A stretch of DNA of 23,150 nt from a virus, in IMG/VR virus record IMGVR_UViG_3300042453_001439, positions 1 to 23,150 of that record; one strand, 5' to 3'. Position numbers and translations under genes: made by a program. Every line of letters begins with the position of its first letter. Positions within the stretch are counted from its first letter, which is position 1. Below the pieces are notes generated by a model that was given only the letters and a program-made list of their open reading frames with translations, was not told the DNA's origin and searched no databases. This document shows positions 1-23,150 of the stretch, piece by piece.

Positions 1-3000
1 GACCAGCAAACGTCATCGCCCCCGTGCCCGTCAGCGTCGTTCCCGTACCATTTACCCAGTTGCCGTAGATTGCTGGTGTGGTTGAACCCGTCGCCAGCGT
101 CATCGTATTCGTCGTCCTAGCCGACATGTCGATGGTGCCGATGTTGTAGGCGGCGTTAACGGTGATGGTGGCTCCGCTGTTTGGAACAGCAGCCATAAAA
201 ACTGCAGTATCTTGAGCCAAGGGGAAATAATCAGCACTTCCAGTCCCTGGTGTAGTAGTGTTTGACCACAAATTGACACTACTCCAGTTTTGGCTTGCAG
301 CAGAAACCGTATAAACCGTCTTCGCAGCATCAAACGTAATGCCGCTGTTGCCTTTGCAGTCTCCGATGCGCGTGCCCGTCGCTGGCGCGGCTACACCGGC
401 TATGGTGATGGCTCTGAAGTCAACGTCGGTGAGGCTGACGGCAGCGCAGGTGAGCGTGCGTGTGATGCTAAAGGCGTTGGAGCGAACGAAGTGACGCATC
501 GTGGCGTCGGTGCCTGCTGAGCAGGTGAGGGTGCCGGTGATGGTCTGGTTGGCTGTGACGCTGATGATCTTCAAGCCAGCAGAGGTAATGCCGGTGAAGG
601 ACAGGTTGTTGAAGGTGTTGGCCCCGTTGATGGTGACGGTGCCTGCTCCCACGCTTGTGAAGCTAACGTTGTAGAAGGTCTTACCATTTCCTGTAATTCC
701 AGGGTTTGCGTTTGTAAAATTTAACTGTGACGTGCCGGATGTAAATGTCAGATTAGCGGCGCTTGTTTCTGTTGTGCCAAAGTTTAAAGTATTACCACTA
801 CCCGAAAAACTTATTATGCTACTTCCAAGAGAATATGTTATAGAATTTCCATGATCTGATACAAAACCACCAGCGGTCACATTGTAAGAGGCCGTATCAA
901 ATGACCCATTGGTTACCCTGAGATCAGCATTACCAATGTTTAACGCACTCCCCAACGTCCACTCACACCCAACGCCATTCACCGTAATCGTTGAAGCTAA
1001 CGCCACACCATTCGTCGTCAACGTCTTCCCCGACGTAGACCCTGACAGCGTGATAGCGCCCGTGTACGTCCTCGTTAACCCCGTCGCAGGCAGCGTCACG
1101 TTGCCGTGAATGCCGTCAATAGCTGTGCTGCCTGCCAGCGTTACGTTGCCGCTTGCGGGGCCTGCAATGGTCAGAGACTTCATCCTGATGCCGCCAGTGA
1201 CAGCGTTCACCGTGGCTGTGTAGGCTGTGGCGTTGGACAGGCTGTCAAAGACAACATCATCATGGCTTCTCGGCACAGACGCGCCTGAGCCTCCACCAGA
1301 CGACGTAGACCAACGAGCGGTGTCGCTCCAGTTGCCTGTGCCGCCAACCCAGTAGCGTGTGCTGTCGGCTGGCTTGGCTGTGCGGTAGACAGGCGCCGCT
1401 GCTGTGCCTGTGCTGTTGGCACCGGCGTAGAACTCACCAGGGCTTGTGGCCGCAAAGCCGAAAGTATTCATTTGAAGGTAATCAATACCGCTAGTGCAAG
1501 GGCCTGCCAAGATGTGTGTAGCGTTGCCACTAATAGCAACAAGAATCAGGCCGAAATTACCACCAGATATCGACCATTTGCCAAAAGTCTGTGTTGTTGT
1601 ACCAAAATTAATACTGAAATTAAGTGTTACAGGTGCGGCAAACTCAGTAAATTGGTTGTTTCCTGTGACCGTAAGGCCATTGCCGTTTGGTGTAATAGTG
1701 AGTTTGTTGTATGATTGATTACCACCGGCAAAAGTACGGGCAAGGTTGGTAGCGCTAGACAGAAGAATGTCGGCGGTGCCTTTGTATAAAGTTCCTGCCG
1801 TATAAGTCCACACGTTTCCAGTGCCTGAAAGAGACCAAGCACCGGAGCCCATTTTTAGCGTGCCTGCGGTAGATGTAAAAAATCCGGTGGTAACGCTGTA
1901 TGACACCGCATCAAACGTGCCGCTGGCTAGTGTCAGGGTTCTTGTGGAACCTAGAGACAACGCATCAGCAAGCTGGACAACACCAGTAACGGAATTTACC
2001 GTGACAGGACAACCAAAAGTAATGCCGTTGCTGGTAATCGTCTGCGTGCCGCGCTTGGCGAACGTGATCGTGCCTCCGGCACTAGACGACGTCACTCCTG
2101 TACCAAACTTCCAATCGCCGTAAACAAACGGAGTGTTGGTGCTGGTGGTGAGCGTCATCGCACTAGTCCGCAACGACGCATCAAACGTACCAATGTTCCA
2201 TGCGGCATTGATCGTGATGGTTCCTGTCACGCTGCCCGCAGCTTCATCAAACACCGCCGTGTCTTGCGCCAGCGGGAAGTTGTTGATGTCAGGACTGCCC
2301 CCAGAGCCCGGCGCCCAAGCGGTAGCGCTCCAGTTCTGCGCCCCTGCAAGGTTCCAATAGACGGTCTTGGCCGCAGGGAAGGCGATGCCGCTGTTGCCGC
2401 CACAATCGCCTGCACGGGTCGGAGAAGAGCCTGCTGCGGTGCCTGCAATGGTGATGTCGCGGAAGTCGCAGTCTGTGGCACTGAGCGTGCCTACGGTGAG
2501 TCTGCGGGTGGTGCCGATAGTGTTGGAGCGGACGAAGATGCGACGGACGGCTGTGGCACCGGCGACGGTGAGGGTGCCGGTGATGGTTTGGTTTGCCGCT
2601 AGTTCTAGCTGTATTAAACCAGCGGAAGAAGGGGCAGTGACCGTCAAATTGTTAAACGAGTTTGCTCCAAATACTGTATGCGATACAGGCGAAGTTCCGG
2701 TAAAAGATACGTTATAAAAAGTAAAACCAGATCCCCCATCTAACGTTGGGCCAGCAGTATTCGGGGAATTTATCTGGGACGTACCGGCATTCAACGTCAA
2801 GTTGGTTGAAGTGGTAAAAGTTATAAAACTAGAACCACTGAGCGTCAACGTACTCGACCCCAGCGCTATCGTCCTGACGTTGCTGTTGCTGGACGATATC
2901 GCATTTGCCGTTACGTTGTAGTTCTTGGTGTCGAAGGTGCCGTTGGTGATGGTGAGGGTGTTGGAGCCGATGTTCAAAGCGTCGGCGAGTTCGACTGTTC

Positions 3001-4393
3001 CGCCGTAGGTGTCGACTGTGATGCCACCGGCAAATGTTTTGCCTGCGCTAGTGATGGTCTGCGTGTTTCGGCCAGAGAACGTTAGAGTAACAAAGCCTGT
3101 AACGGAAGTGCCCGAACCGTTTGTCCAGTTACCGTAACACGTTGTCCCAACGTTCATTGTAATAGTCATCGCGTTTGTTCGCGTTGACATGTTTACGCTG
3201 GATATGTGCGTTGCCAAAGCAGAATCAATCTGCACCGTAGCGAAGTTATTCAACCCCGTGTTCTCAATGACAGCGGTATCCTGCGCCAACGGGAAGTTGT
3301 CTGTGCTGACACCAGCACCAGAGCTTGCAGCCCAAGCGTTGGCAGACCAGTTGCCACCAGCAGCTAAGTTCCAATACACCGTCTTGGGCGTGTCGAAGGT
3401 GATGCCTCTGCATCCACGCAGGTCTCCAACACGCGTGCCGCTGATGGGCGCGGCTGTGCCAATGACGTAGATGTCTCGGAAGTCTGCGTCGGTCAGGCTT
3501 GGGGCTGAGTTGATGGTGAGGGTTTGGGCGATGCCGTAGGTGACGCCTCTGAACCAGACTCTGCGGTTGCCTGCTGTGCCGGTGGTGGAGAGAGTGCCGT
3601 TGATGGTTTGGCGGGATTCAAAGGCAACTTGACGGACGCCTACGGAGGATGGGGCTGTGACGGTAAGGTTGTTGAAGGTGTTGATCCCCAGAATACTATA
3701 CGTTCCAGTTGCCGTCGAAGTAAAAGACACGTTATAAAATGCGACTCCGTTTTGCGAGAGATTGCCGCCAGCCAATGAACAACCGGTTGCGGTACAAACA
3801 ATAGTTGACGTACCCGCGTTAAATGTAAGATTTGTATTGGTTGTAAAATCAACAGCATTTGCTCCGGTGCTCAAAGTCACCGTAGACGAACCCAAACTAA
3901 TAGTTCTAACGTTTGAGCCCGAAGAAGAAAGAGTTAAGGCCGTAACATTATAGTTGGCGGTATTAAAAGTACCTCTAACAACACCAAGTGTTGCTGATAT
4001 AGTAACAGCATCGCCTAGAGTAACAGTAATACCGGTTCCGTCGATGTTCAACCCGCCTATTGTTTTCCCGGCAGTTGTTATTGTTCCTGTTCCATTTATT
4101 ACGAATGTATTAGCGTAAGTAAACCCCATCCCAGCCACAAGCGTGACGCTACCAGACACCGTAATATTGGTGCTACCCGCCAACGTCCCCGTAAACCCTG
4201 TGCAGTTGATGGACTTGGCACCAGTGTTGCCGCTGGAGATGGTGCAGGTGCCGGTGGACAGGTTCGTGAAGAAAACGTCATCAGCGCTGGTAGGAACGCT
4301 TGCCCCGCCACCGCCGCCAGACGTAGTTGACCACTTGGTTCCGGCAGTGCCATCCCAAGCTGCTGTACCACCAACCCAGTACCTGTCAGCCAT
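1..4393 (-). CDS. Very large modular beta-rich fibre/spike-like protein, 3' end outside window
   Basis: I followed the frame codon by codon from the ATG at 4393 to the left edge and found no stop, so at least 1464 codons are visible and the end lies outside the window. The product is very rich in Thr, Ser, Gly, Asn and Val, with short alternating beta-strand patterns and almost no charged helices, as in right-handed beta-helix fibres, spikes and adhesins. A signature with Y-W/T and a following N-W-S...W recurs with its Tyr at residues 5, 340, 679, 1014 and 1361, so the chain is built of modules of about 335-347 residues. Residues 5 and 1014 begin RYWVGGT; 340 and 679 begin VYWNL. Modules ending near 340, 679 and 1361 share a tail like DFRDI..I.GTAA followed by GD..G..GI.F. 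A tail fibre, spike or surface adhesin is the likely role, but no catalytic motif is recognised. The 90-aa gene ends 3 nt upstream; only a weak AAGAG precedes the ATG. Confidence 0.85.
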   Translation of the reverse strand, partial: MADRYWVGGTAAWDGTAGTKWSTTSGGGGGASVPTSADDVFFTNLSTGTCTISSGNTGAKSINCTGFTGTLAGSTNITVSGSVTLVAGMGFTYANTFVINGTGTITTAGKTIGGLNIDGTGITVTLGDAVTISATLGVVRGTFNTANYNVTALTLSSSGSNVRTISLGSSTVTLSTGANAVDFTTNTNLTFNAGTSTIVCTATGCSLAGGNLSQNGVAFYNVSFTSTATGTYSILGINTFNNLTVTAPSSVGVRQVAFESRQTINGTLSTTGTAGNRRVWFRGVTYGIAQTLTINSAPSLTDADFRDIYVIGTAAPISGTRVGDLRGCRGITFDTPKTVYWNLAAGGNWSANAWAASSGAGVSTDNFPLAQDTAVIENTGLNNFATVQIDSALATHISSVNMSTRTNAMTITMNVGTTCYGNWTNGSGTSVTGFVTLTFSGRNTQTITSAGKTFAGGITVDTYGGTVELADALNIGSNTLTITNGTFDTKNYNVTANAISSSNSNVRTIALGSSTLTLSGSSFITFTTSTNLTLNAGTSQINSPNTAGPTLDGGSGFTFYNVSFTGTSPVSHTVFGANSFNNLTVTAPSSAGLIQLELAANQTITGTLTVAGATAVRRIFVRSNTIGTTRRLTVGTLSATDCDFRDITIAGTAAGSSPTRAGDCGGNSGIAFPAAKTVYWNLAGAQNWSATAWAPGSGGSPDINNFPLAQDTAVFDEAAGSVTGTITINAAWNIGTFDASLRTSAMTLTTSTNTPFVYGDWKFGTGVTSSSAGGTITFAKRGTQTITSNGITFGCPVTVNSVTGVVQLADALSLGSTRTLTLASGTFDAVSYSVTTGFFTSTAGTLKMGSGAWSLSGTGNVWTYTAGTLYKGTADILLSSATNLARTFAGGNQSYNKLTITPNGNGLTVTGNNQFTEFAAPVTLNFSINFGTTTQTFGKWSISGGNFGLILVAISGNATHILAGPCTSGIDYLQMNTFGFAATSPGEFYAGANSTGTAAAPVYRTAKPADSTRYWVGGTGNWSDTARWSTSSGGGSGASVPRSHDDVVFDSLSNATAYTATVNAVTGGIRMKSLTIAGPASGNVTLAGSTAIDGIHGNVTLPATGLTRTYTGAITLSGSTSGKTLTTNGVALASTITVNGVGCEWTLGSALNIGNADLRVTNGSFDTASYNVTAGGFVSDHGNSITYSLGSSIISFSGSGNTLNFGTTETSAANLTFTSGTSQLNFTNANPGITGNGKTFYNVSFTSVGAGTVTINGANTFNNLSFTGITSAGLKIISVTANQTITGTLTCSAGTDATMRHFVRSNAFSITRTLTCAAVSLTDVDFRAITIAGVAAPATGTRIGDCKGNSGITFDAAKTVYTVSAASQNWSSVNLWSNTTTPGTGSADYFPLAQDTAVFMAAVPNSGATITVNAAYNIGTIDMSARTTNTMTLATGSTTPAIYGNWVNGTGTTLTGTGAMTFAG

Positions 4394-6728: not shown

Positions 6729-7832
6729 TTAGGGAACTGGGAGATAGTTGATGCGGACTGCTCCGCCGCCACCGCTACCCGAATTTGCAACAACACCGCC
6801 TGCGCCGACAACAACAGGATACGTAGTTCCGGGGGTGACTGTCAGGAATGTCCAGCGAAGTCCACCACCGCCGCCACCGCCACCAGCCGACGCTGATAAA
6901 CCAGAACCGCCACCGCCACCGCCGTACAACGCCCCGTTCTGACCTACAGAGGTTTCTCCGCCAGAACCCCCTCCGCCGAATCCGCCCCCTGTGCCGTTTG
7001 CGCCCTGCCCACTCAGACCTACGCCACCGCCACCAACTCCGTATGAAAGAAACGCGCCGCCGCCGCCCGCGCCGCCGCCAGTCCCTGCAACTCCGCCAAG
7101 ACCAAGATAGCTGCCGCCATTTCCACCGTTACCTGCGTACCCGCCCGCCCCGCCACCGCCGCCAGAAAAAATACTTACCCTGTTACTGCCTGCACCGCCG
7201 TTACCGCCAAAGACAGTTGCGCTTAACGTAGCGCCCGTCCCTCCTGCACCGCCGCCAGTACTTGCCCCCGCGCCGCCGCCACCCGCAAAAAACGTGTCAA
7301 AACTAGACGCAACTCCCGGATTTCCAGTACCCGCAACAGGCCCGCCGCTTCCTCCACCACCAACACACAGTACGTATACCTGCGTGACACCTACCGGAGC
7401 CGTCCAAGAGTACGTACCGGGCGTGGTAAAGAGTACGGAAGTCCACGGCGCAAAAGTCACCTGACCAACCTGTCCTACACCAACAAGCGTATTCGGTGTC
7501 AACGGGTCAGTGAAGTCTCTCGCACCGCCAATCGGGGCCCAACCCCACTGGATGACCAGCATCCCTTCGCTGACGTTGTTCAACGCGTTGACGCCAGACT
7601 GATACCACGTGTTCGTGTCCGGGCGTGGATTACGCAATGCCTGCGGGTCTGCAATCGGGTACATCCCGAGTTGCAACTGTGGCTGATCCGGCGTCCAGCA
7701 CTGCGGACATGCTTTGATCTGTGTCTCTTTCGTCTTGACGACGAGGTTCTTCAGTCGCTTCAGGTCAAAGCGAAAGCCACAGACGTCGCAAAAGCCGAAC
7801 GCCTTTCTTCCGTTTGCGAAGCGGTTAGACAT
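6729..7832 (-). CDS. Zinc-ribbon plus glycine-rich tail-type protein (367 aa)
   Basis: The N-terminus carries two Cys pairs, C15-x2-C18 (CDVC) and C42-x2-C45 (CPQC), about 24 residues apart, as in a zinc ribbon. Residues about 46-150 form a Trp-containing beta-type linker (LGMYPIADPQALRNP, WTSVLFTTPGTYSWTAP). From about 155 to 355 the chain is a glycine-rich domain with many runs of three to six Gly (GGGGSGG, GGGGGAGG), ending YPVVVGAGGVV and GAVRINYLP. Glycine-rich domains of this kind, often ending near a short beta-strand, form distal adhesins or tail-tip domains in several phages. It follows the adaptor gene by 6 nt with no strong Shine-Dalgarno. A virion tail or receptor-contact role is inferred. 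The joining of a zinc ribbon with a polyglycine sandwich is unusual. Confidence 0.75.
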   Translation of the reverse strand: MSNRFANGRKAFGFCDVCGFRFDLKRLKNLVVKTKETQIKACPQCWTPDQPQLQLGMYPIADPQALRNPRPDTNTWYQSGVNALNNVSEGMLVIQWGWAPIGGARDFTDPLTPNTLVGVGQVGQVTFAPWTSVLFTTPGTYSWTAPVGVTQVYVLCVGGGGSGGPVAGTGNPGVASSFDTFFAGGGGAGASTGGGAGGTGATLSATVFGGNGGAGSNRVSIFSGGGGGAGGYAGNGGNGGSYLGLGGVAGTGGGAGGGGAFLSYGVGGGGVGLSGQGANGTGGGFGGGGSGGETSVGQNGALYGGGGGGSGLSASAGGGGGGGGLRWTFLTVTPGTTYPVVVGAGGVVANSGSGGGGAVRINYLPVP

Positions 7833-9057: not shown

Positions 9058-9854
9058 CAGACGTACCTCGTCTTCTTGGTACGCGTCTCGCACCCAGCAC
9101 CACGAACGCTGCCGCCCTTGGCGTAGGACTTGACGTTGCCGCCGCGTTTCATGCCCATTTCGGCGCCGCGCTCCATGACGTCACGGGCGTAGTCCTCGGT
9201 GGCTTTGCGGCCCGCAGCTTGCTGCTCGCCGCGAGTGCCGTACCTTGCGCTGCTGAAGACCCCGCCGGTCTTGGGCGGGTCGGGGTACAACGAGGGATCG
9301 TTGCGCTCGGGGGCCTCTTTGGCTGCGGGACGTTTCATCGCACCCGCTGCGCCTCGCGCCAGCGCCGCAAGCCCTGCGCGCCCCAACGCCGCGACACCCG
9401 CCTCCGGGCCCAGCATAGGCTCGACGGCGTCACGGCCCGGGTCCCGCATCATTTCTCGACGGCGCGCAGCCGCCCCTTCCTTCGCCCTTGACGGGTCGTT
9501 GTAGGGGCTCTCACTACGCATCGGGGCGGTATCGCGGTCCGCTGCCTTGCGACCTTCGGCGGCACCGCGACCTGCGCCCGCACCAACACGCGCAGGCAGC
9601 TTACCGGTCGCGTCCGCATTCAACAGATCGCGCAGCGTCTTGTCAGCGCCGTACTGCCGTTGGAAATCCGCGAGTTCCTCACGACTGACGTTTGCGTTTC
9701 CGCGCGCGTCTTCTCCCCGGTTTTTGACCGGCCCGTCGTACTTGGTCCTCCGTTGAGTCACAGACGCAGGGCGCAGCGCAGGAGCCAGCGCTTTGCGCAG
9801 CGCTTCTCCTTTGTCGATGCTGCGAAAGTCTCTTGAGTAGTCCTCGCGCGCCAT
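9057..9854 (-). CDS. Ala/Arg-rich basic protein with C-terminal YAKGG motif (265 aa)
   Basis: The 265-aa chain begins MAREDYSRDFRSIDKGEALR and is mostly disordered-looking, rich in Ala, Arg, Gly, Asp and Lys, with a short helical Ala/Gly stretch near 150-172 (GVAALGRAGLAALARGAAGA). The C-terminus holds SYAKGGSVRGAGCETRTKKT. This resembles the tail of the 65-aa protein (YANGGVTRADGCIRKGHTRG): both have Y-A-x-GG, then G-C about 8 residues later and a basic end. The gene sits amid the small basic genes of the virion cluster, and its stop overlaps the next start (TGATG). An internal virion or ejected protein is plausible, but no domain is recognised. Confidence 0.65.
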   Translation of the reverse strand: MAREDYSRDFRSIDKGEALRKALAPALRPASVTQRRTKYDGPVKNRGEDARGNANVSREELADFQRQYGADKTLRDLLNADATGKLPARVGAGAGRGAAEGRKAADRDTAPMRSESPYNDPSRAKEGAAARRREMMRDPGRDAVEPMLGPEAGVAALGRAGLAALARGAAGAMKRPAAKEAPERNDPSLYPDPPKTGGVFSSARYGTRGEQQAAGRKATEDYARDVMERGAEMGMKRGGNVKSYAKGGSVRGAGCETRTKKTRYV

Positions 9855-18598: not shown

Positions 18599-20152
18599 TC
18601 AGTAGTACGCCACTTTTCTGAAACTGCGGAACTCCGGCGGGTCGTCCGGTGCGTCCGACGGCAGGCCGATGAACCCGCCCATGCGCAAGCGCATCAGGGC
18701 TTGTATGCATGTGTCCACATAGTCGTCGTGGTCCCCTGCGGGGAACGCTGCGACCTCCTCAATGACCTCCTTGGCCCACCTAGTATCGGGGGCCCACACA
18801 CGGCCCGAGACAAAGATGTCCGACACGGAGTTCAACCGCGCCATTTTGTCTGATTTTGTGCCGACTTTACCTCTTGATGGCGAAAACTCCGACACCGGCA
18901 CGCCTGTTGCGCGCAGCTCCTGTATCAACGGAGCGCCTGCGGCCTTTTTCTCGACCAGACAGGTGTCGGGTTGCCACTCCTTGTAGTACTCCAACGCTCG
19001 CTTTTTTAGATCCGGGAACGTCCATCGGTACTTGATGGCGTCCAGCAGGATAATATGCGCGTTGTTGTTGTCGTCCTCGTTGAACCACACACCCCACGTC
19101 GTGCAGGCGCTGTAGTCAGCGGCAGTTTTTGTCTCGTGCGCGGTGTCCCACGACTGGATGATGTAGTCGCACTTGGGCGGTTTGTCTCGCTCCCAGAGCC
19201 GCCAGTGCTCGCGCCGGATGACTGCCGCCACCTCGCTGGTGGGGTTCTGCTGGTACTGCGCTTGCCAGAAGCGCGGGTCCATACCTGCGCGCTTGGCCTG
19301 CAACTGCTCCAGGGGCCACTGCCCCGGCCACAGACTCTTCTCCTCGTCGGTGTTCTCGTTGAGGATGGCGGGCAGCTCGACGATCTCCCAAGGAGTGGCG
19401 TCGGGGTTCTTGATCTGGTGGCTGATCAACTGGCCCGTGAGGTCAATCTGCGACCACCGCGTCATGATCACGATGATCGCCCCGTTGGGCATCAGGCGCT
19501 GCAAAGGGCCGGTCTGGAACCAGTTCCACGCCGCGTCGAAGGGCGTGCGTGTGCCCGCCTTCAGGTCCTGCTCCGAGTGCGGGTCGTCAATGACGAACAG
19601 GTCCGCGCCCCGGCCTGCGATGCTGCCGCCCACACCCACGGCGTAGTACTGCCCGCCCGATGCGGTCGACCACTTGCCCGAAGCCTTCTGATCATCGGCC
19701 ACCTTGGTGCCGGAGAAGATCTGCTGGTAGTCCTCGGTCTCGATGAGGTTTCTGATGCGCCGCCCGAAGTCCTCCGACAAGGAGGAGGTGTGCGTGCCCA
19801 TGATGATCTTCTTCTCGGGGAAGCGTCCGAGGAAGTACGACGGGAACAAGAACGAGGAGAACTCCGACTTGCCCATGCGAGGCGCGATGTTGATGATCAC
19901 GCGTGTCTTCTCGCCCCTGACCACGGCGTCGAAGATCTGCGCCAGCTTGCGGTGGTGCGGCCCCTCCTTGAACCCCGGGTAGATGGCGTGGGCGTAGCCC
20001 AGCAGACCTGTGCGTGCGGCGCTGAGCTTGGCGCGCTTCTCGCGCTCCTCCAGCAGGTCGAACAGCTCGGCCTTCTCCTTGGCCGTCATCGTGGGCAACG
20101 CGCGCTGGAGCGCAGCGGCCTCTGCCGGGGTCAGGAAGTCAGGGAACTTCAC
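18599..20152 (-). CDS. terL: Terminase large subunit (517 aa)
   Basis: The 517-aa chain has the two-domain motor-nuclease layout of TerL. The ATPase domain carries a Walker A-type motif (INIAPRMGKSEF, residues about 87-98), a Walker B (DLFVIDDPHSEQ, about 184-195) and a coupling motif (IIVIMTRWSQID, about 226-237). The RNase H-like nuclease domain shows acidic residues in SWDTAHE (D336), in LVEKKAAG (E401) and in GDHDDYVD (D474, D476, D477), the usual three-metal-ligand pattern. The start is GTG and overlaps the TerS stop by 4 nt (GTGA), giving coupled synthesis. Length and motif spacing suit headful or cos-type terminases with a gp17-like nuclease fold. It packages DNA into the prohead through the portal. 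Confidence 0.95.
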   Translation of the reverse strand: MKFPDFLTPAEAAALQRALPTMTAKEKAELFDLLEEREKRAKLSAARTGLLGYAHAIYPGFKEGPHHRKLAQIFDAVVRGEKTRVIINIAPRMGKSEFSSFLFPSYFLGRFPEKKIIMGTHTSSLSEDFGRRIRNLIETEDYQQIFSGTKVADDQKASGKWSTASGGQYYAVGVGGSIAGRGADLFVIDDPHSEQDLKAGTRTPFDAAWNWFQTGPLQRLMPNGAIIVIMTRWSQIDLTGQLISHQIKNPDATPWEIVELPAILNENTDEEKSLWPGQWPLEQLQAKRAGMDPRFWQAQYQQNPTSEVAAVIRREHWRLWERDKPPKCDYIIQSWDTAHETKTAADYSACTTWGVWFNEDDNNNAHIILLDAIKYRWTFPDLKKRALEYYKEWQPDTCLVEKKAAGAPLIQELRATGVPVSEFSPSRGKVGTKSDKMARLNSVSDIFVSGRVWAPDTRWAKEVIEEVAAFPAGDHDDYVDTCIQALMRLRMGGFIGLPSDAPDDPPEFRSFRKVAYY

Positions 20153-20748
20153 GAGGCGCCAGCCTCGACGGCTACGCCGCCGTCGCCGACGGCAACGACA
20201 TCGGACACCGAGACGTCCGTCACGGACATGAACCGCGCAAGCTTCTCCTTGATCTTGGCGTCCAACTCGGCGTCGTTGACGCCGGTCTTCTTGACCTCCA
20301 CCCGGTCGGTGAACAACGCCACCTCGGTGACGCGCCCCAACATCTCCAGTGCACGCAAGCGGATGCGCGGGTCGGGGTTTTTTGTCTCCTCCAAGATCTG
20401 CGACACCGCGTAGCCGCGCAACTCTCGCGCCTGCTCGACGAACGCCCAGTCGTAGGCGGTCAGCATGCCTACAAGGTGGCGCACCGCCGGGGGTGTCTTC
20501 AACTGCAACAGCGCAGCGTGCTGATCTGGCGTCGGGGTCGACGTCGTGACCGCTGTGAAGGCCTGTTGTGCCAGCGAAGCGGCAAGCTGTGCGTCGGCGG
20601 AGTCTTCGGTGGGTGCGCCCACAGCGGTGAGCCAGTCGAGTGTCCCCTGTTGTGCGGCCACAAGATCTGGCGCAGACACCCGCGACACCGGCACTACGTG
20701 GTCGGCGCTTTCGATGGGGGGTTCGAAATCGAGGAGGTGTTCCAGCAT
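20149..20748 (-). CDS. terS: Terminase small subunit, probable (199 aa)
   Basis: The gene directly precedes TerL and overlaps it by 4 nt, the standard position of the small terminase subunit. The start is set at the ATG 20748 (MLEHLLDFEPPIESADHVVP); a TTG 66 nt upstream (20814) would extend into the plus-strand promoter/RNA region and is unlikely. Neither start has a strong Shine-Dalgarno. The second half contains LRGYAVSQILEETKNPDPRI and RLRALEMLGRVTEVALFTDR, a helical pattern I recall from small terminase-type proteins of aquatic phages, followed by a basic helical stretch (AELDAKIKEKLARFMS) and a Val/Gly-rich end. A weak minus-strand promoter candidate (GGGACA, 17 nt, TAGTAT at 20819-20847) lies upstream. 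DNA binding at the packaging site is the expected role. Confidence 0.7.
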   Translation of the reverse strand: MLEHLLDFEPPIESADHVVPVSRVSAPDLVAAQQGTLDWLTAVGAPTEDSADAQLAASLAQQAFTAVTTSTPTPDQHAALLQLKTPPAVRHLVGMLTAYDWAFVEQARELRGYAVSQILEETKNPDPRIRLRALEMLGRVTEVALFTDRVEVKKTGVNDAELDAKIKEKLARFMSVTDVSVSDVVAVGDGGVAVEAGAS

Positions 20749-20794
20749 ATGTCGCAGGGCCGCATCAAAACGCCCCAGTGCGCGCAGTGTAGCG

Positions 20795-20823
20795 TTGCAA
20801 CCTGCTCGCCGCAAGCCTATACT
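20795..20823 (+). promoter_or_regulatory. Sigma70-type promoter of the small RNA candidate
   Basis: TTGCAA (20795-20800) and TATACT (20818-20823) are separated by exactly 17 nt and both are close to consensus (TTGACA, TATAAT). It points to the plus strand, away from the minus-strand packaging genes, and the transcript would start near 20829. No coding sequence follows before the strong terminator. Confidence 0.55.
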
Positions 20824-20828
20824 ACAAA

Positions 20829-20876
20829 GGCTTCTGTGCCTTGTCCCGGGTTGAGCTTGCTCCCCGGGATTTTTTT
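20829..20876 (+). ncRNA. Candidate stand-alone small RNA (about 48 nt)
   Basis: A promoter-like pair ends at 20823 and an intrinsic terminator ends at 20876, with nothing coding between them, so the transcript would be about 48 nt. It would begin with a short hairpin (AAGGC 827-831 with GCCTT 838-842, partly included) and end in a longer compound stem and seven U. The RNA lies in the gap between two divergent transcription units. No known family is recognised; the transcript and its start are predicted only. Confidence 0.4.
20844..20876 (+). terminator. Strong intrinsic terminator on the plus strand
   Basis: TCCCGGG (20844-20850) pairs with CCCGGGA (20863-20869), and inside the loop GAGC (20853-20856) pairs with GCTC (20859-20862). 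Seven T follow at 20870-20876. This is a clear Rho-independent terminator reading rightward, in a region where no plus-strand gene lies to the left. Confidence 0.8.
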
Positions 20877-20910
20877 ATGTATACGTGTCAAACACTAGAC
20901 AGTGTGTAAG

Positions 20911-21030
20911 GTATTTTTGTAGAAATTTTGTAAAAATTTTATTTTTGTTTTAGAAAAGGGCGATTTTTGTAAAAATTGTGATTTTTACTATTTTTGTGGT
21001 TTTGTAAAAATTGCAGTTTTTACAAAAATT
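20911..21030. repeat. AT-rich block with repeated TTTTGTAAAAATT motifs and inverted repeats
   Basis: The motif TTTTGTAAAAATT occurs at 20926-20938, 20965-20977 and 21000-21012, with a degenerate copy (TTTTGTAGAAATT) at 20915-20927. On the opposite strand TTTTGTAAAAA lies at 21017-21027. The last pair forms a perfect 11-bp inverted repeat (21000-21010 with 21017-21027) around a TTGCAG loop. A second perfect 8-bp inverted repeat, GTAAAAAT-TGTG-ATTTTTAC, lies at 20969-20988. The tract is extremely A/T-rich between GC-rich flanks, as expected for operators, an origin or a DNA-unwinding element. Position between two divergent transcription units favours a regulatory or replication role. Confidence 0.6.
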
Positions 21031-21038
21031 GTTATTAT
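21011..21038 (+). promoter_or_regulatory. Possible early promoter of the plus-strand small genes
   Basis: TTGCAG (21011-21016) and TATTAT (21033-21038) are separated by 16 nt and both partly fit sigma70 boxes. The -35 box is exactly the loop of the 11-bp inverted repeat, so a protein bound to the repeat would cover it. The -10 matches TATAAT at four of six positions, so this is tentative. Confidence 0.35.
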
Positions 21039-21118
21039 GGTTGTGGATTAGTGTTTATATTATGTCGCGTATCAGCCCTGCACAGGGGGGTGGTGGGGAG
21101 GGGTGGGGTCGCCGCAGC

Positions 21119-21192
21119 AGGGTCTTTTGACCCCCTCGGCAGGGGGGTAGCACTACTTATGAGAGCACTTCGCTCTCGACGTGACAGCGTCG
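21119..21192 (+). promoter_or_regulatory. Chain of hairpins in the leader of the plus-strand genes
   Basis: Four hairpins follow one another: GGGTC-TTTT-GACCC (21120-21133), CCCCCT-CGGC-AGGGGG (21131-21146, mutually exclusive with the first by overlap), GAGAGC-ACTTC-GCTCTC (21161-21177) and CGACG-TGACAG-CGTCG (21177-21192). A fifth (21202-21220) is the first copy of the GGGGGACA repeat. Two overlapping alternative stems suggest a switching or attenuating leader, but no T-run is present. Confidence 0.4.
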
Positions 21193-21201
21193 TGTACGCT
21201 G

Positions 21202-21220
21202 GGGGGACACGATGTCCCCC
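21202..21220 (+). repeat. GGGGGACA/TGTCCCCC hairpin, copy 1
   Basis: GGGGGACA (21202-21209), loop CGA, TGTCCCCC (21213-21220) form a perfect 8-bp stem. It lies 20 nt before the 132-aa gene start, with GGAAGG between, and is the first of six such elements. Confidence 0.75.
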
Positions 21221-21240
21221 ATGATCGGAAGGTATCTCCC

Positions 21241-21639
21241 ATGTCTCTCAAGACTGCCATCGCCGCCGTGCTGACCCACGGCGACGCACTTGCCACGGCG
21301 TGGCTCGACCTGCAAGCGCAGGCGAAGCGGGTTTCCTACGCTGCCTACGAAACCGCGTGCATCCAAGCGATCAGCGCTAAGTACGGCGTGGCCTTGAATA
21401 CAGACGGCACTCTGCCCAAGGCGGACGCTGCGGCGTACCAGCGACTGAAGCGTCTGCGCCGTGCACACCCGGAGTTCGTGGGCGGCGGCTCTCGCCAGCA
21501 CAAGGCGGAGCCTGTGCGGACTCGCGTCGTGGCTCGCGTGGCGGGCGACGTGATCGCGGCCCTCGTGGCCGCAGGCCTGAGCAAGGCCGAAGTGGCGGGC
21601 GTGCTCAAAGCCGTCAAAGACGGGATCACGTTCGAGTGA
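21241..21639 (+). CDS. Hypothetical protein of the plus-strand gene set (132 aa)
   Basis: The ATG at 21241 is chosen because GGAAGG lies 8 nt upstream; an upstream in-frame start would read through the hairpin. The product starts MSLKTAIAAVLTHGDALATA and is largely alpha-helical, with conserved-looking SYAAYETACIQAISAKYG and KADAAAYQRLKRLRRAHPEF blocks. A basic linker (GGGSRQHKAEPVRTRVV) then leads to a C-terminal helix (GLSKAEVAGVLKAVKDG). The middle basic RLKRLRRAHP segment could bind nucleic acid, but no DNA-binding fold is established. It is the first and longest gene of the rightward set, so it may be an early regulator. I do not recognise a family. Confidence 0.65.
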   Translation: MSLKTAIAAVLTHGDALATAWLDLQAQAKRVSYAAYETACIQAISAKYGVALNTDGTLPKADAAAYQRLKRLRRAHPEFVGGGSRQHKAEPVRTRVVARVAGDVIAALVAAGLSKAEVAGVLKAVKDGITFE

Positions 21640-21646
21640 TCCCTCA

Positions 21647-21667
21647 GGGGGGACGCGATGTCCCCCC
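21647..21667 (+). repeat. GGGGGGAC/GTCCCCCC hairpin, copy 2
   Basis: GGGGGGAC (21647-21654), loop GCGAT, GTCCCCCC (21660-21667) form a perfect 8-bp stem 7 nt after the stop of the 132-aa gene. Same arms as the other copies with a longer loop. Confidence 0.7.
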
Positions 21668-21673
21668 CATCAT

Positions 21674-21770
21674 CGCTGCGTCCGCAGCGGTGCTGCGTCC
21701 TGCGGGGCGCAGACCAGTGCGGATGTGACGCGCCCGTCGGGCGCTGTCCGTACATCAGGGCACAGCCCTG
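21674..21770 (+). promoter_or_regulatory. Cluster of four hairpins between the 132-aa and 53-aa genes
   Basis: Perfect stems are CGCTGCG-TC-CGCAGCG (21674-21689), CTGCG...CGCAG (21693-21712, 10-nt loop), GCGCCC-GTC-GGGCGC (21730-21744) and CAGGGC-ACA-GCCCTG (21756-21770). The last ends just before the AAAGGAGAG ribosome binding site of the 53-aa gene. No T-runs follow, so they are not typical terminators. Confidence 0.45.
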
Positions 21771-21784
21771 CAAAGGAGAGTGAA

Positions 21785-21946
21785 GTGGACGTTCTCTACT
21801 ACGCCATGCGCTTCGCGCACAACGGCGGAAAACTGCCTGTGCAAGCGCACTTGCAAGAGGCTGCACAAATGTGCGATCTACCCGTCTACGAAAGCGAACC
21901 CGTGGACGGATATGCGCCTGTGGCGCTGGAAGACTACGAGTTCTGA
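21785..21946 (+). CDS. Small hypothetical protein, GTG start (53 aa)
   Basis: The start is the GTG at 21785 because AAAGGAGAG ends 4 nt upstream; a longer in-frame start would lie within the hairpin cluster. The 53-aa product (MDVLYYAMRFAHNGGKLPVQ onward) has an N-terminal hydrophobic/aromatic stretch, a central AHLQEAAQMCDLPVY helix and an acidic C-terminus (EPVDGYAPVALEDYEF). Its composition suits a small globular accessory protein of the early gene set. No family is recognised. Confidence 0.65.
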   Translation: MDVLYYAMRFAHNGGKLPVQAHLQEAAQMCDLPVYESEPVDGYAPVALEDYEF

Positions 21947-21959
21947 GCGTAGCCGCTAA

Positions 21960-21977
21960 GGGGGACACGTGTCCCCC
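21960..21977 (+). repeat. GGGGGACACGTGTCCCCC palindrome, copy 3
   Basis: GGGGGACACGTGTCCCCC is an 18-bp perfect palindrome with no loop between arms, 13 nt after the stop of the 53-aa gene. It is the fully symmetric version of the repeat element and could act as a double-stranded operator as well as a hairpin. Confidence 0.75.
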
Positions 21978-21993
21978 TTGCGAGTGCGCTTGA

Positions 21994-22010
21994 CGCTCCC
22001 GTCGGGAGCG
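21994..22010 (+). promoter_or_regulatory. CGCTCCC-GTC-GGGAGCG hairpin
   Basis: A perfect 7-bp stem around GTC. It shares the CCC-GTC-GGG core with the hairpin at 21730-21744, while the outer pairs differ but still pair (compensatory change), which supports RNA pairing. It lies about 20 nt before the 89-aa gene start. Confidence 0.5.
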
Positions 22011-22030
22011 GCGTGCTGTTGGAGAGAGCC

Positions 22031-22300
22031 ATGCCAAAAGAGTACTTTCTCGTCCACACCGCAACCCTCGTCGGCGGGGGGTTCGCGGGCTTCAACACCG
22101 TAGTCTCAGGGCCCGTCAGCCAAGACGGGTACATGAAGCGGTACGGGGAGCACCCGGCCCGAGAGCGGGCCGAAGCCGCCGCAGAAGAAGTGTTCCGTGC
22201 CTCGGGCGCATACCCGGGGTACCGCTTCATGGCCGCAGTCGTCCGCGTGGACGGCGGGCGCGCCGTCGTGTGCCAGTCCCGAGGCCGTCGGGGTTGGTGA
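22031..22300 (+). CDS. Hypothetical protein (89 aa)
   Basis: I start at ATG 22031 (MPKEYFLVHTATLVGGGFAG), with GGAGAGAGCC immediately upstream as the ribosome binding site. The product is 89 aa, mainly beta-type in its first half and helical in the middle (YMKRYGEHPARERAEAAAEE), with YRFMAAVVRVDGGRAVVCQS as a likely beta-hairpin near the end. No catalytic motif is visible. It is followed by the first of three identical 34-bp cassettes. It belongs to the early small-gene set; function is unknown and no family is recognised. Confidence 0.65.
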   Translation: MPKEYFLVHTATLVGGGFAGFNTVVSGPVSQDGYMKRYGEHPARERAEAAAEEVFRASGAYPGYRFMAAVVRVDGGRAVVCQSRGRRGW

Positions 22301-22303
22301 AAC

Positions 22304-22337
22304 CCGGGGGACATTTGTCCCCCATCAACTAGGAGAG
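22304..22337 (+). repeat. 34-bp hairpin-RBS cassette, copy 4
   Basis: The cassette starts with CC, then GGGGGACA (22306-22313), TT and TGTCCCCC (22316-22323), then ATCAACTAGGAGAG, which ends in the ribosome binding site of the 59-aa gene. Its 34 bases are identical to those at 22526-22559 and 22803-22836. It lies 3 nt after the stop of the 89-aa gene. Confidence 0.9.
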
Positions 22338-22342
22338 TCAGC

Positions 22343-22522
22343 ATGATCAAAGAGACCCAGAAGGACGCACTGCGTGCGTTCAAGACCGAACTGCGCACGC
22401 GTGCGCAGGACGAGCGGGCTGCTGCCCGCCGCAAGGCGCAAGCCCTGCGCTGTGCGCAAGCGAAGGAAGCCCAGGCTGAGACATGGGCACAGACCGTGCG
22501 CGGCGTAGCGCCGCTGCGCTGA
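22343..22522 (+). CDS. Small Ala/Arg/Gln-rich helical protein (59 aa)
   Basis: A complete ATG-to-TGA frame of 60 codons fits exactly between two identical cassettes, 5 nt after the GGAGAG of copy 4. The product begins MIKETQKDALRAFKTELRTR and continues AQDERAAARRKAQALRCAQA, ending TVRGVAPLR. It is highly charged, Ala- and Arg-rich and predicted to be one long helix, with a strong basic moment. A nucleic-acid-binding or RNA polymerase-modifying small protein would fit, but no family is recognised. The flanking cassettes support its being a real gene. Confidence 0.7.
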   Translation: MIKETQKDALRAFKTELRTRAQDERAAARRKAQALRCAQAKEAQAETWAQTVRGVAPLR

Positions 22523-22525
22523 AGC

Positions 22526-22559
22526 CCGGGGGACATTTGTCCCCCATCAACTAGGAGAG
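22526..22559 (+). repeat. 34-bp hairpin-RBS cassette, copy 5
   Basis: Identical in all 34 bases to copies 4 and 6: stem arms at 22528-22535 and 22538-22545, then ATCAACTAGGAGAG. The GGAGAG (22554-22559) lies 4 nt before the ATG at 22564. Confidence 0.9.
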
Positions 22560-22563
22560 AAAG

Positions 22564-22797
22564 ATGTTCGATATCGAAGTAACAGACACTTTCGGCGGAG
22601 CGCCGAACTACTGCTGGGTCAAGCGGGGGTACACCCGCGCCCAGTCCAGGCGCGGCGTAGTCCGCGCAATCAAGACCTTGGCCGGCTGGCACGGCTGGGT
22701 GCGCGTGAAGGTCGAAGATCTGGGCGACACGCTCATCGTGCGCCCGACGGACACGTCCGGCGTCAACCAGATCGCGTTCGCGCACTGGGCCGACTGA
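22564..22797 (+). CDS. Small conserved-type phage protein (77 aa)
   Basis: The ATG at 22564 follows the cassette GGAGAG by 4 nt. The product reads MFDIEVTDTFGGAPNYCWVK, then a basic segment (YTRAQSRRGVVRAIKTLAGW) and a Trp/His-rich region, ending with VNQIAFAHWAD. The opening motif (FDIEVTDTFGG...NYCWV) is one I recall in short proteins of many environmental phages, so it is probably a real, widespread family without a known function. A mixed alpha-beta fold is suggested by the pattern. Flanking cassettes tie it to the gene set. Confidence 0.75.
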   Translation: MFDIEVTDTFGGAPNYCWVKRGYTRAQSRRGVVRAIKTLAGWHGWVRVKVEDLGDTLIVRPTDTSGVNQIAFAHWAD

Positions 22798-22802
22798 CTC
22801 AA

Positions 22803-22836
22803 CCGGGGGACATTTGTCCCCCATCAACTAGGAGAG
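22803..22836 (+). repeat. 34-bp hairpin-RBS cassette, copy 6
   Basis: Same 34 bases as copies 4 and 5: arms at 22805-22812 and 22815-22822, then ATCAACTAGGAGAG. The GGAGAG (22831-22836) lies 4 nt before the ATG at 22841. Confidence 0.9.
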
Positions 22837-22840
22837 AGCA

Positions 22841-23065
22841 ATGCCCTACTACCTCTGCATCGGGGACGACCCGCTGGAAGACTCCAGCCGTCACCGCACC
22901 AAGCGCGACGCGATCGACGCCTTCCGCGAAGTGGCGGAAGAACTGGCCCGGTACGGTCAGACCATCACCGGGACGGTACACGTCGCCGACAAGCGCAGCG
23001 AGTGCGTCGACGACCCCGACCTCCACCTCTGCATCGGCCCGCGCGGCGGCGTGCAGTGCACCTAA
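22841..23065 (+). CDS. Small conserved-type phage protein (74 aa)
   Basis: The product starts MPYYLCIGDDPLEDSSRHRT and continues KRDAIDAFREVAEELARYGQ, then a beta segment (TITGTVHVADKR) and an end CVDDPDLHLCIGPRGGVQCT. The YYLC...DPLEDSSRH-TK-AIDAFR...Y-GQ pattern resembles a small protein family frequent in environmental phage genomes (recalled, no known role). It is likely an alpha-beta domain with paired Cys residues near each end. It follows cassette copy 6 and is followed by the next gene after an 11-nt gap that contains AAAAGGA. Confidence 0.75.
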   Translation: MPYYLCIGDDPLEDSSRHRTKRDAIDAFREVAEELARYGQTITGTVHVADKRSECVDDPDLHLCIGPRGGVQCT

Positions 23066-23076
23066 AAGGAACAGTC

Positions 23077-23150
23077 ATGGTACTCCAGCGCTTCGAAATG
23101 ATGCCCGTCCTGCGCGACGGCCCAGGCGTCGATGCCCTCGTGGCCATGCT
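23077..23150 (+). CDS. Start of another small gene, cut by window end
   Basis: ATG at 23077 is preceded by AAAAGGA about 6 nt upstream and opens a frame that stays open to the window end (24 codons visible): MVLQRFEMMPVLRDGPGVDA, then LVAML. No GGGGGACA cassette precedes this gene, unlike the others. Nothing can be said on function. Confidence 0.55.
   Translation, partial: MVLQRFEMMPVLRDGPGVDALVAM

Follow-up and report, generated by a model that had tools for sequence, protein, structure and literature searches.

Palindromes in the small-gene operon

What reads the six copies of one palindrome, GGGGGAC(A)-N2/3-(T)GTCCCCC, that lie between small genes to the right of the terminase gene in IMG/VR virus record IMGVR_UViG_3300042453_001439? 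The window, which is the whole stretch of DNA analysed here, is this 23,150-base virus record, and the small genes form a run on its plus strand. An original prediction for this locus had offered both a paired RNA stem and a symmetric protein site as explanations. Because a switch in the dialect of the sites (their arm sequence, which differs between phages) is accompanied by a change in the operon's first gene, this gene is the likely regulator. The reading favoured here with moderate confidence, drawn from sequence comparison, is that the repeats are DNA sites of a phage-encoded dimeric protein, most likely the first-gene product, which would act as a repressor of the roadblock or stoperator type.

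All six predicted copies were present in the window. The exact pattern GGGGGACA-N2..12-TGTCCCCC occurred 5 times, while 100 dinucleotide shuffles gave none; the sixth copy, site 2, has an imperfect centre that lacks the innermost pair, and hence falls outside the exact-pattern count. Site 1 (21202–21220; GGGGGACA-CGA-TGTCCCCC) is bordered by an AT-rich leader region on one side and by the first gene on the other, and a site is found at the same position in relatives. Site 2 (21647–21667; GGGGGGAC-GCGAT-GTCCCCCC) has the stop codon of the first gene 7 bases before it, and site 3 (21960–21977) reads GGGGGACA-CG-TGTCCCCC. Sites 4 (22306–22323), 5 (22528–22545) and 6 (22805–22822) are contained in three plus-strand cassettes (22304–22337, 22526–22559, and 22803–22836), in which the palindrome is joined to a Shine-Dalgarno sequence (with ATCAACTAGGAGAG following the site in the first cassette). 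These three cassettes are identical over 34 bp, as had been stated.

The claim that one copy stands in front of each of six genes was right in its count but not strictly so in its placement: the sites occupy the gaps, and sites 2–6 each begin 5–13 bases past the stop codon of the preceding gene. From site 2 to the next likely start (GTG at 21786) the distance is about 118 bases, and the gene starting at about 23078, after the last of the six small genes, has no preceding site. A control unit made of hairpin and ribosome binding site, as proposed for each gene, describes three copies of the window genome and is not general, with site-to-next-start distances varying widely. The view that the copies are not ordinary terminators was borne out, as the GC stem with T-run of an intrinsic terminator was absent and no terminator-like hit was obtained at the window sites. 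Rfam covariance models gave no match up to E=1 in the region 20800–23150.

The placement of 163 sites was surveyed across 24 genomes or loci, with genes called by a simple program. It was found that 45% of the sites began within 20 bases past a stop codon (4% of random positions), 41% were followed, no more than 40 bases after their end, by a start with a Shine-Dalgarno sequence (9% at random), and 17% were inside a called open reading frame (ORF), compared with 71% at random. Promoter-like -10 elements, mostly extended -10 elements of the TGnTAnnAT type, clustered ahead of sites, chiefly site 1: 22 were counted in the upstream 80 bases and 4 in the downstream 160. This clustering places site 1 near the start of an early transcript in those phages.

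Site dialects in related phages

A search with the terminase large subunit (18599–20152, minus strand), which is transcribed away from the operon, yielded 80 related loci with terminases 67–98% identical. Repeats in these relatives were found by a de novo search for repeated palindromes. The viral collection was also scanned for the exact pattern; among the matches listed, many single hits were estimated to be chance, so only multi-copy loci were used.

Many of the terminase relatives had a repeat family at the equivalent place, each with its own arm sequence. Consistent half-sites were obtained from 39 distinct loci, and almost every genome had one dialect. The half-sites included GGGGACA, GGGGAGA, TAGGACA, GTTGACA, AGGGACA, AGGAACA, and CGGGACA, and further GCGGACA, GTGGTCA, TGTGTCA, GGGGTCA, AGTTACA, and CAGGTAG. 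The larger loci held 4–14 site copies each. In the larger genomes checked, the sites were almost wholly restricted to the small-gene operon adjoining the terminase; in G001, 14 sites fell within 8.7 kb of the 67.8-kb record. Among the outcomes that would speak against it, the original prediction had named an absence of copies in relatives, or copies made only by recent gene duplication. Neither was seen: copies were present in relatives, and similar genes carried different site sequences in different phages, so that gene duplication alone does not account for them.

Some genomes showed mosaic arrangements. In L071/L130 (one contig), sites near 7473–9364 of L071 represent both the GGGGACA and the GGGGAGA dialects beside a GGGGACA-type first gene, and part of the downstream segment shares 95.7% identity with the GGGGAGA phage L129, pointing to a recombinant origin of L071. 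Two GGGGAGA-dialect phages, L128 (near 15073/15100, operon orientation) and L129 (near 15907/15934), contain a GGGGGACACCAGTCCCCC remnant about 27 bases from an imperfect GGGGGAG site, possibly a relic of an earlier dialect. Phage L162 retained at 9498 (operon orientation) one AGGGACA-N3 site of the dialect of L163, inside a segment 99.3% identical to L163.

Palindromes of the form GGGGGGAC..GTCCCCCC were also seen in other phage contigs, L016 (4345, 5008, and 6630), L053 (4316 and 4586), and L062 (8465 and 8774); those of L062 are directly followed by AGAAAGG-type Shine-Dalgarno sequences. The operon used as a nucleotide query returned nothing relevant from the phage collection, and a comparable repeat family was not found in the isolates DSL-LC04, 023Pt_psg01, HTVC027P, and HTVC023P. 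The bacterial genome collection gave a single locus with a terminase relative, which was distant, lay in an uncultured bin, and gives no host assignment.

Association of the dialects with the first gene

The first gene of the window (21241–21639, plus strand) encodes a protein of 132 amino acids (aa) without family or fold match. Most relatives have a first gene of about 125–165 aa located about 1.0–1.3 kb from the terminase start. This gene was flanked by matching palindromes in 38 of 54 distinct genomes, while shuffled flanks gave 0 and flanks taken from different genomes gave 12%. Two types of first gene were distinguished: a broad group of 45 sequences that includes the gene of the window (alignment A1), and nine sequences of the AGA type (alignment A2). 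GGGGAGA sites accompanied 9 of 9 AGA-type genes and none of the other first genes. The AGA type was found in phages with terminases 94–98% identical to that of the window and also in phages at 79–81%. C-terminal modules are exchanged between the two types, that of L128 resembling those of L134, L140, and L153, which have ACA dialects.

A profile of the AGA-type protein alone retrieved 10 further loci, and all of them had GGGAGA sites (41 in all) and 0 GGGACA sites. For the large GGGGAGA genome G015, with 463 ORFs, a comparison without overlap filtering picked out the ORFs that the second GGGGAGA genome also contains and four other-dialect genomes lack; the first gene had the lowest E-value among them. 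The next-best ORF resembles the window gene at 22841–23065; it is unlikely to be the reader, because the window is of the GGGGACA dialect and has a similar gene. Searches with single first-gene proteins returned mostly already-known contigs, and the first-gene protein of L141 had no match among phage records.

Two pairs of close relatives carry different dialects. In L129 and L071, a 7.5-kb stretch that stops 8 bases short of the first gene was 98.3% identical; site 1 differs inside this stretch (GGGGAGA vs GGGGACA), and the two phages have unrelated first genes. The terminase proteins of L162 and L163 are near-identical; at four sites the left arm shows the same change between the two phages, the right arm changes to match, and the spacing differs by one base. 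The nucleotide identity of this pair was 95.7% upstream, 72.5% in the N-terminal domain (N-domain) of the first gene, 92.3% in the C-terminal module, and 93.9% downstream. Mantel tests with genomes as units showed that dialect correlated with the first-gene N-domain (r=0.26, p=0.0005), also when the terminase and its neighbour gene were taken into account (r=0.19, p=0.001). No correlation of dialect with the C-terminal part of the first gene was obtained.

DNA site or RNA hairpin

Within a genome the arms were invariant or nearly so, the modal spacing of the own genome was kept in 148 of 158 sites, and the sequence of the centre was free. In sites with a two-base centre, the RNA fold leaves the innermost A and T open, and these bases, though unable to pair in RNA, were complementary in 53 of 55 sites; a three-base centre would allow them to pair, but they were complementary in only 64 of 86 such sites. 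The one-sided changes in imperfect copies comprised 16 G-U-compatible changes, 23 A-C changes, and 21 transversions, with no preference for G-U. The predicted RNA stability ranged from -6.8 to -13.7 kcal/mol across dialects, about two-fold. Because of the fixed arms and spacing, the free centre, the behaviour of the innermost A..T, the missing G-U bias, and the variable stability, the sites fit a symmetric duplex and fit an RNA stem poorly. These features point to dyad-symmetric DNA sites for a dimeric protein, and the hairpin interpretation is probably wrong. On these grounds selection on the arms as a paired RNA stem, one of the suggestions of the original prediction, was not supported; among the options listed, that of repeated sites for a DNA-binding repressor was supported, and so was the idea that a single factor controls the many small genes together.

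The palindromes CTCAGTTACA-N3-TGTAACCGAG around the first gene of L170 and L194 have the same A-C mismatch in both copies and in both genomes, an asymmetry that RNA pairing would disfavour.

Alternative explanations

The sites might still work at the RNA level, as hairpins of the early transcript that the first-gene product or some other factor recognises, and serve as part of an antiterminator of the N/boxB kind, as a translational operator, or as a processing or stabilising stem. They were placed in presumably transcribed gaps, often just past a stop codon, and ten of ten dialect sequences tested folded as hairpins. A hairpin before the first gene also recalls nutL-N of lambda, in which a hairpin lies ahead of the first gene. 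Known RNA hairpin operators have a conserved loop and a stem that tolerates compensatory or G-U changes, and the sites show the opposite, invariant arms and a free loop. Together with the absence of G-U bias, the retention of an innermost A..T that cannot pair across a two-base centre, and the spread of stability between dialects, this makes RNA hairpins unlikely. A second possibility accepts DNA operators and assigns them to another phage-encoded protein, whose gene would be linked to or exchanged with the first gene. Such a reader would agree with a first gene in which no DNA-binding domain is recognisable, and further ORFs, for example one of 64 aa, are common only to the two GGGGAGA genomes. 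Against it, the sites flank the first gene in most genomes, the divergence peak between L162 and L163 is confined to the N-domain of the first gene, the next-best candidate from G015 has its counterpart in the GGGGACA-dialect window, and the nine large genomes gave no HTH_3 match over the cut-off and no ParB match. A different reader is considered improbable, to a similar degree.

The palindromes could also be mobile or recombination-linker elements spread by copying for module exchange, without a dedicated reader, and the identical 34-bp cassettes of the window genome, the location of sites at gene boundaries, and mosaic genomes such as L071 are what such elements might leave behind. But symmetry and spacing are kept while the centre is free, similar genes bear different dialects in different phages, the dialect follows one protein domain, and the sites are restricted to one operon; this explanation is very unlikely. 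Least credible of all is a role as partition or centromere sites, or as operators of the lysogeny repressor of a temperate phage. Multiple dispersed palindromes occur in partition and lysogeny-repressor systems, but the present sites occur in the early operon only. The nine large relatives had no tyrosine integrase match (serine integrases were not searched), and ParB PF02195, found in 11 of 14 controls, was absent from them. They also lacked an HTH_3 match over the cut-off, and the first gene lacked any Pfam match, so a repressor of the lambda CI/Cro type was not recognised. A lysogeny or partition role is therefore unlikely, and the only locus with a terminase relative in the bacterial genome collection is the distant one mentioned above.

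Proposed mechanism

In the favoured reading, the first gene would encode a dimeric DNA-binding protein. This protein would occupy site 1, a short way past the early promoter, as well as the later sites, which lie in the gaps that separate the small genes. As the protein accumulates, the bound copies would most likely act as roadblocks that limit early transcription along the operon. Because the first gene lies between sites 1 and 2, its product would control its own synthesis. Recognition of the half-site would fall to the N-terminal part (about 95 aa), and the C-terminal helices would be exchangeable. Repeated dialect switching in related phages would then reflect replacement or remodelling of the N-domain of the reader, with the operon sites changed to match. 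DNA binding by the first-gene protein is proposed from its association with the sites, and activation, DNA organisation, or protection of the operon may be its role instead of repression.

Several observations weigh against this reading. In the window itself a promoter could not be recognised immediately ahead of site 1, spacings of 2 and 3 are mixed in the window group, L071 holds sites of two dialects, and some genomes lack the site pair around the first gene. Homology between the two first-gene types was not demonstrable, and of the 10 new AGA-type loci, 8 have near-identical N-domains, which leaves about three independent cases. Sequence comparison of the first-gene protein with Pfam, PHROG, and PDB gave no match, no DNA-binding domain was recognised in it, and two AlphaFold models of first-gene proteins (all-helical, predicted local distance difference test score about 81) gave no credible Foldseek match. 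The correlations in the Mantel tests are modest, dialect also correlates with the terminase and with its neighbour gene, and the independent switches behind the p-values are few.

Repeated intergenic palindromes of phages had been noted before without a known reader, and the natural minimal pairs described here point to a specific protein of unknown family. If the proposal is correct, this protein would contain a new DNA-recognition domain, and about a dozen natural protein-site pairs would be available for decoding its specificity. An operator network would have been rewritten in concert over short evolutionary times, and the annotation of regulators in uncultivated phages would be aided. More tentatively, and with rather less confidence than in the favoured reading, the first genes might belong to a fast-evolving family of phage DNA-binding regulators not described before, whose specificity domain can be swapped and which places a private dialect in most early-operon gaps; dialect switches and mixed-dialect mosaics could then form a compatibility barrier between co-infecting phages that are otherwise near-identical.

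Comparison with known repeat systems

The N/boxB (nut) system of lambda, in which partner specificity differs between phages, resembles the present one in that the gene is the first of the early operon and the site lies between promoter and gene. It differs in that boxB is an RNA hairpin with a conserved loop and few copies, whereas the present sites have a free centre, fixed arms, and many copies in the larger loci.

Cluster O mycobacteriophages contain more than 30 copies of 17-bp palindromes (TGTTCGG-NNN-CCGAACA), for which dimeric regulators were proposed (PMC4351075). The two families are alike in their 7-bp invariant arms, the variable centre of fixed length (3 bp there, N2 or N3 here), the many copies, and the concentration of intergenic copies in a small-gene operon. 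In cluster O, however, one site sequence is shared by five genomes, about one third of the sites are within genes, and no reader was identified (PMC4351075), whereas here the dialect varies by phage with the candidate reader and the sites are confined to one operon. The geometry is the same and the sequence different, and the present sites are best seen as a probable analogue of the cluster O palindromes rather than an established member of that family.

The stoperators of cluster A phages (L5, Bxb1) are 13-bp asymmetric, oriented sites bound by a monomeric repressor in temperate phages (PMC6550527, PMC9283540). Shared features are the many sites per factor, the location of many of them in gene gaps, and the presence of sites at the repressor's own gene. 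Stoperator motif distance correlates with repressor distance, and here the dialect tracks the N-domain of the first gene, the candidate reader. Unlike stoperators, the present sites are dyad-symmetric rather than asymmetric and in one orientation, the protein matches no known family, and the phages have no tyrosine integrase match in the search described above.

In cluster K, SAS is an asymmetric 13-bp sequence (GGGATAGGAGCCC) at translation starts, and ESAS consists of 17-bp imperfect repeats with a variable spacer of 4–13 bp (PMC3203893). These also lie near the starts of some small non-structural genes, and the ESAS consensus differs between subclusters (PMC3203893). The present element is a palindrome of another sequence, its spacing is fixed, and its position is tied to the stop codon no less closely than to the start.

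Planktothrix phage Pag-Yong1 (OL906435.1; L248, L208, and L249) carried GGTTCA-N3-TGAACC in 21 copies, and a different spacing was seen in only one copy. It resembles the present phages in the fixed 3-base centre and in the many copies in gaps between annotated genes, and its terminase is related at 44% identity. It differs in that the palindromes are genome-wide, including the late genes, and in that no counterpart of the first gene was identified. No paper on this palindrome was located, and no description of the present system was found in the literature covered, which is weak evidence as most subscription papers and all preprints were outside the coverage.

Other genes and repeats of the window

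The genes that follow the first gene are all on the plus strand and had no Pfam match. They encode proteins of 52 aa (small gene 2, 21786–21946, start uncertain), 89 aa (small gene 3, 22031–22300), 59 aa (small gene 4, 22343–22522), 77 aa (small gene 5, 22564–22797), and 74 aa (small gene 6, 22841–23065, beginning MPYYLCIGDD). In L128 and L129, two relatives of the GGGGAGA dialect, the genes similar to small gene 6 are accompanied by a GGGGAGA site in the equivalent position.

The gene adjoining the terminase (20149–20814, minus strand) served as the neighbour control. Its label as terminase small subunit (TerS) had come from position only and was dropped, as Pfam gave instead a weak haloacid-dehalogenase-like hit (31 bits, cut-off 26.4); the hit may be real, or the gene may yet encode the small subunit. 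The ORF at 2–4393 (minus strand) extends beyond the window and encodes at least 1,464 aa, in which similar YWxxG...FPLAQDTA segments recur several times; the product is probably a tail or adhesion protein of repetitive build. In the gap past site 2 (21667–21785), more GC-rich inverted repeats (CGCTGCGTCCGCAGCG and others) were observed, which are present also in L071 and L129.

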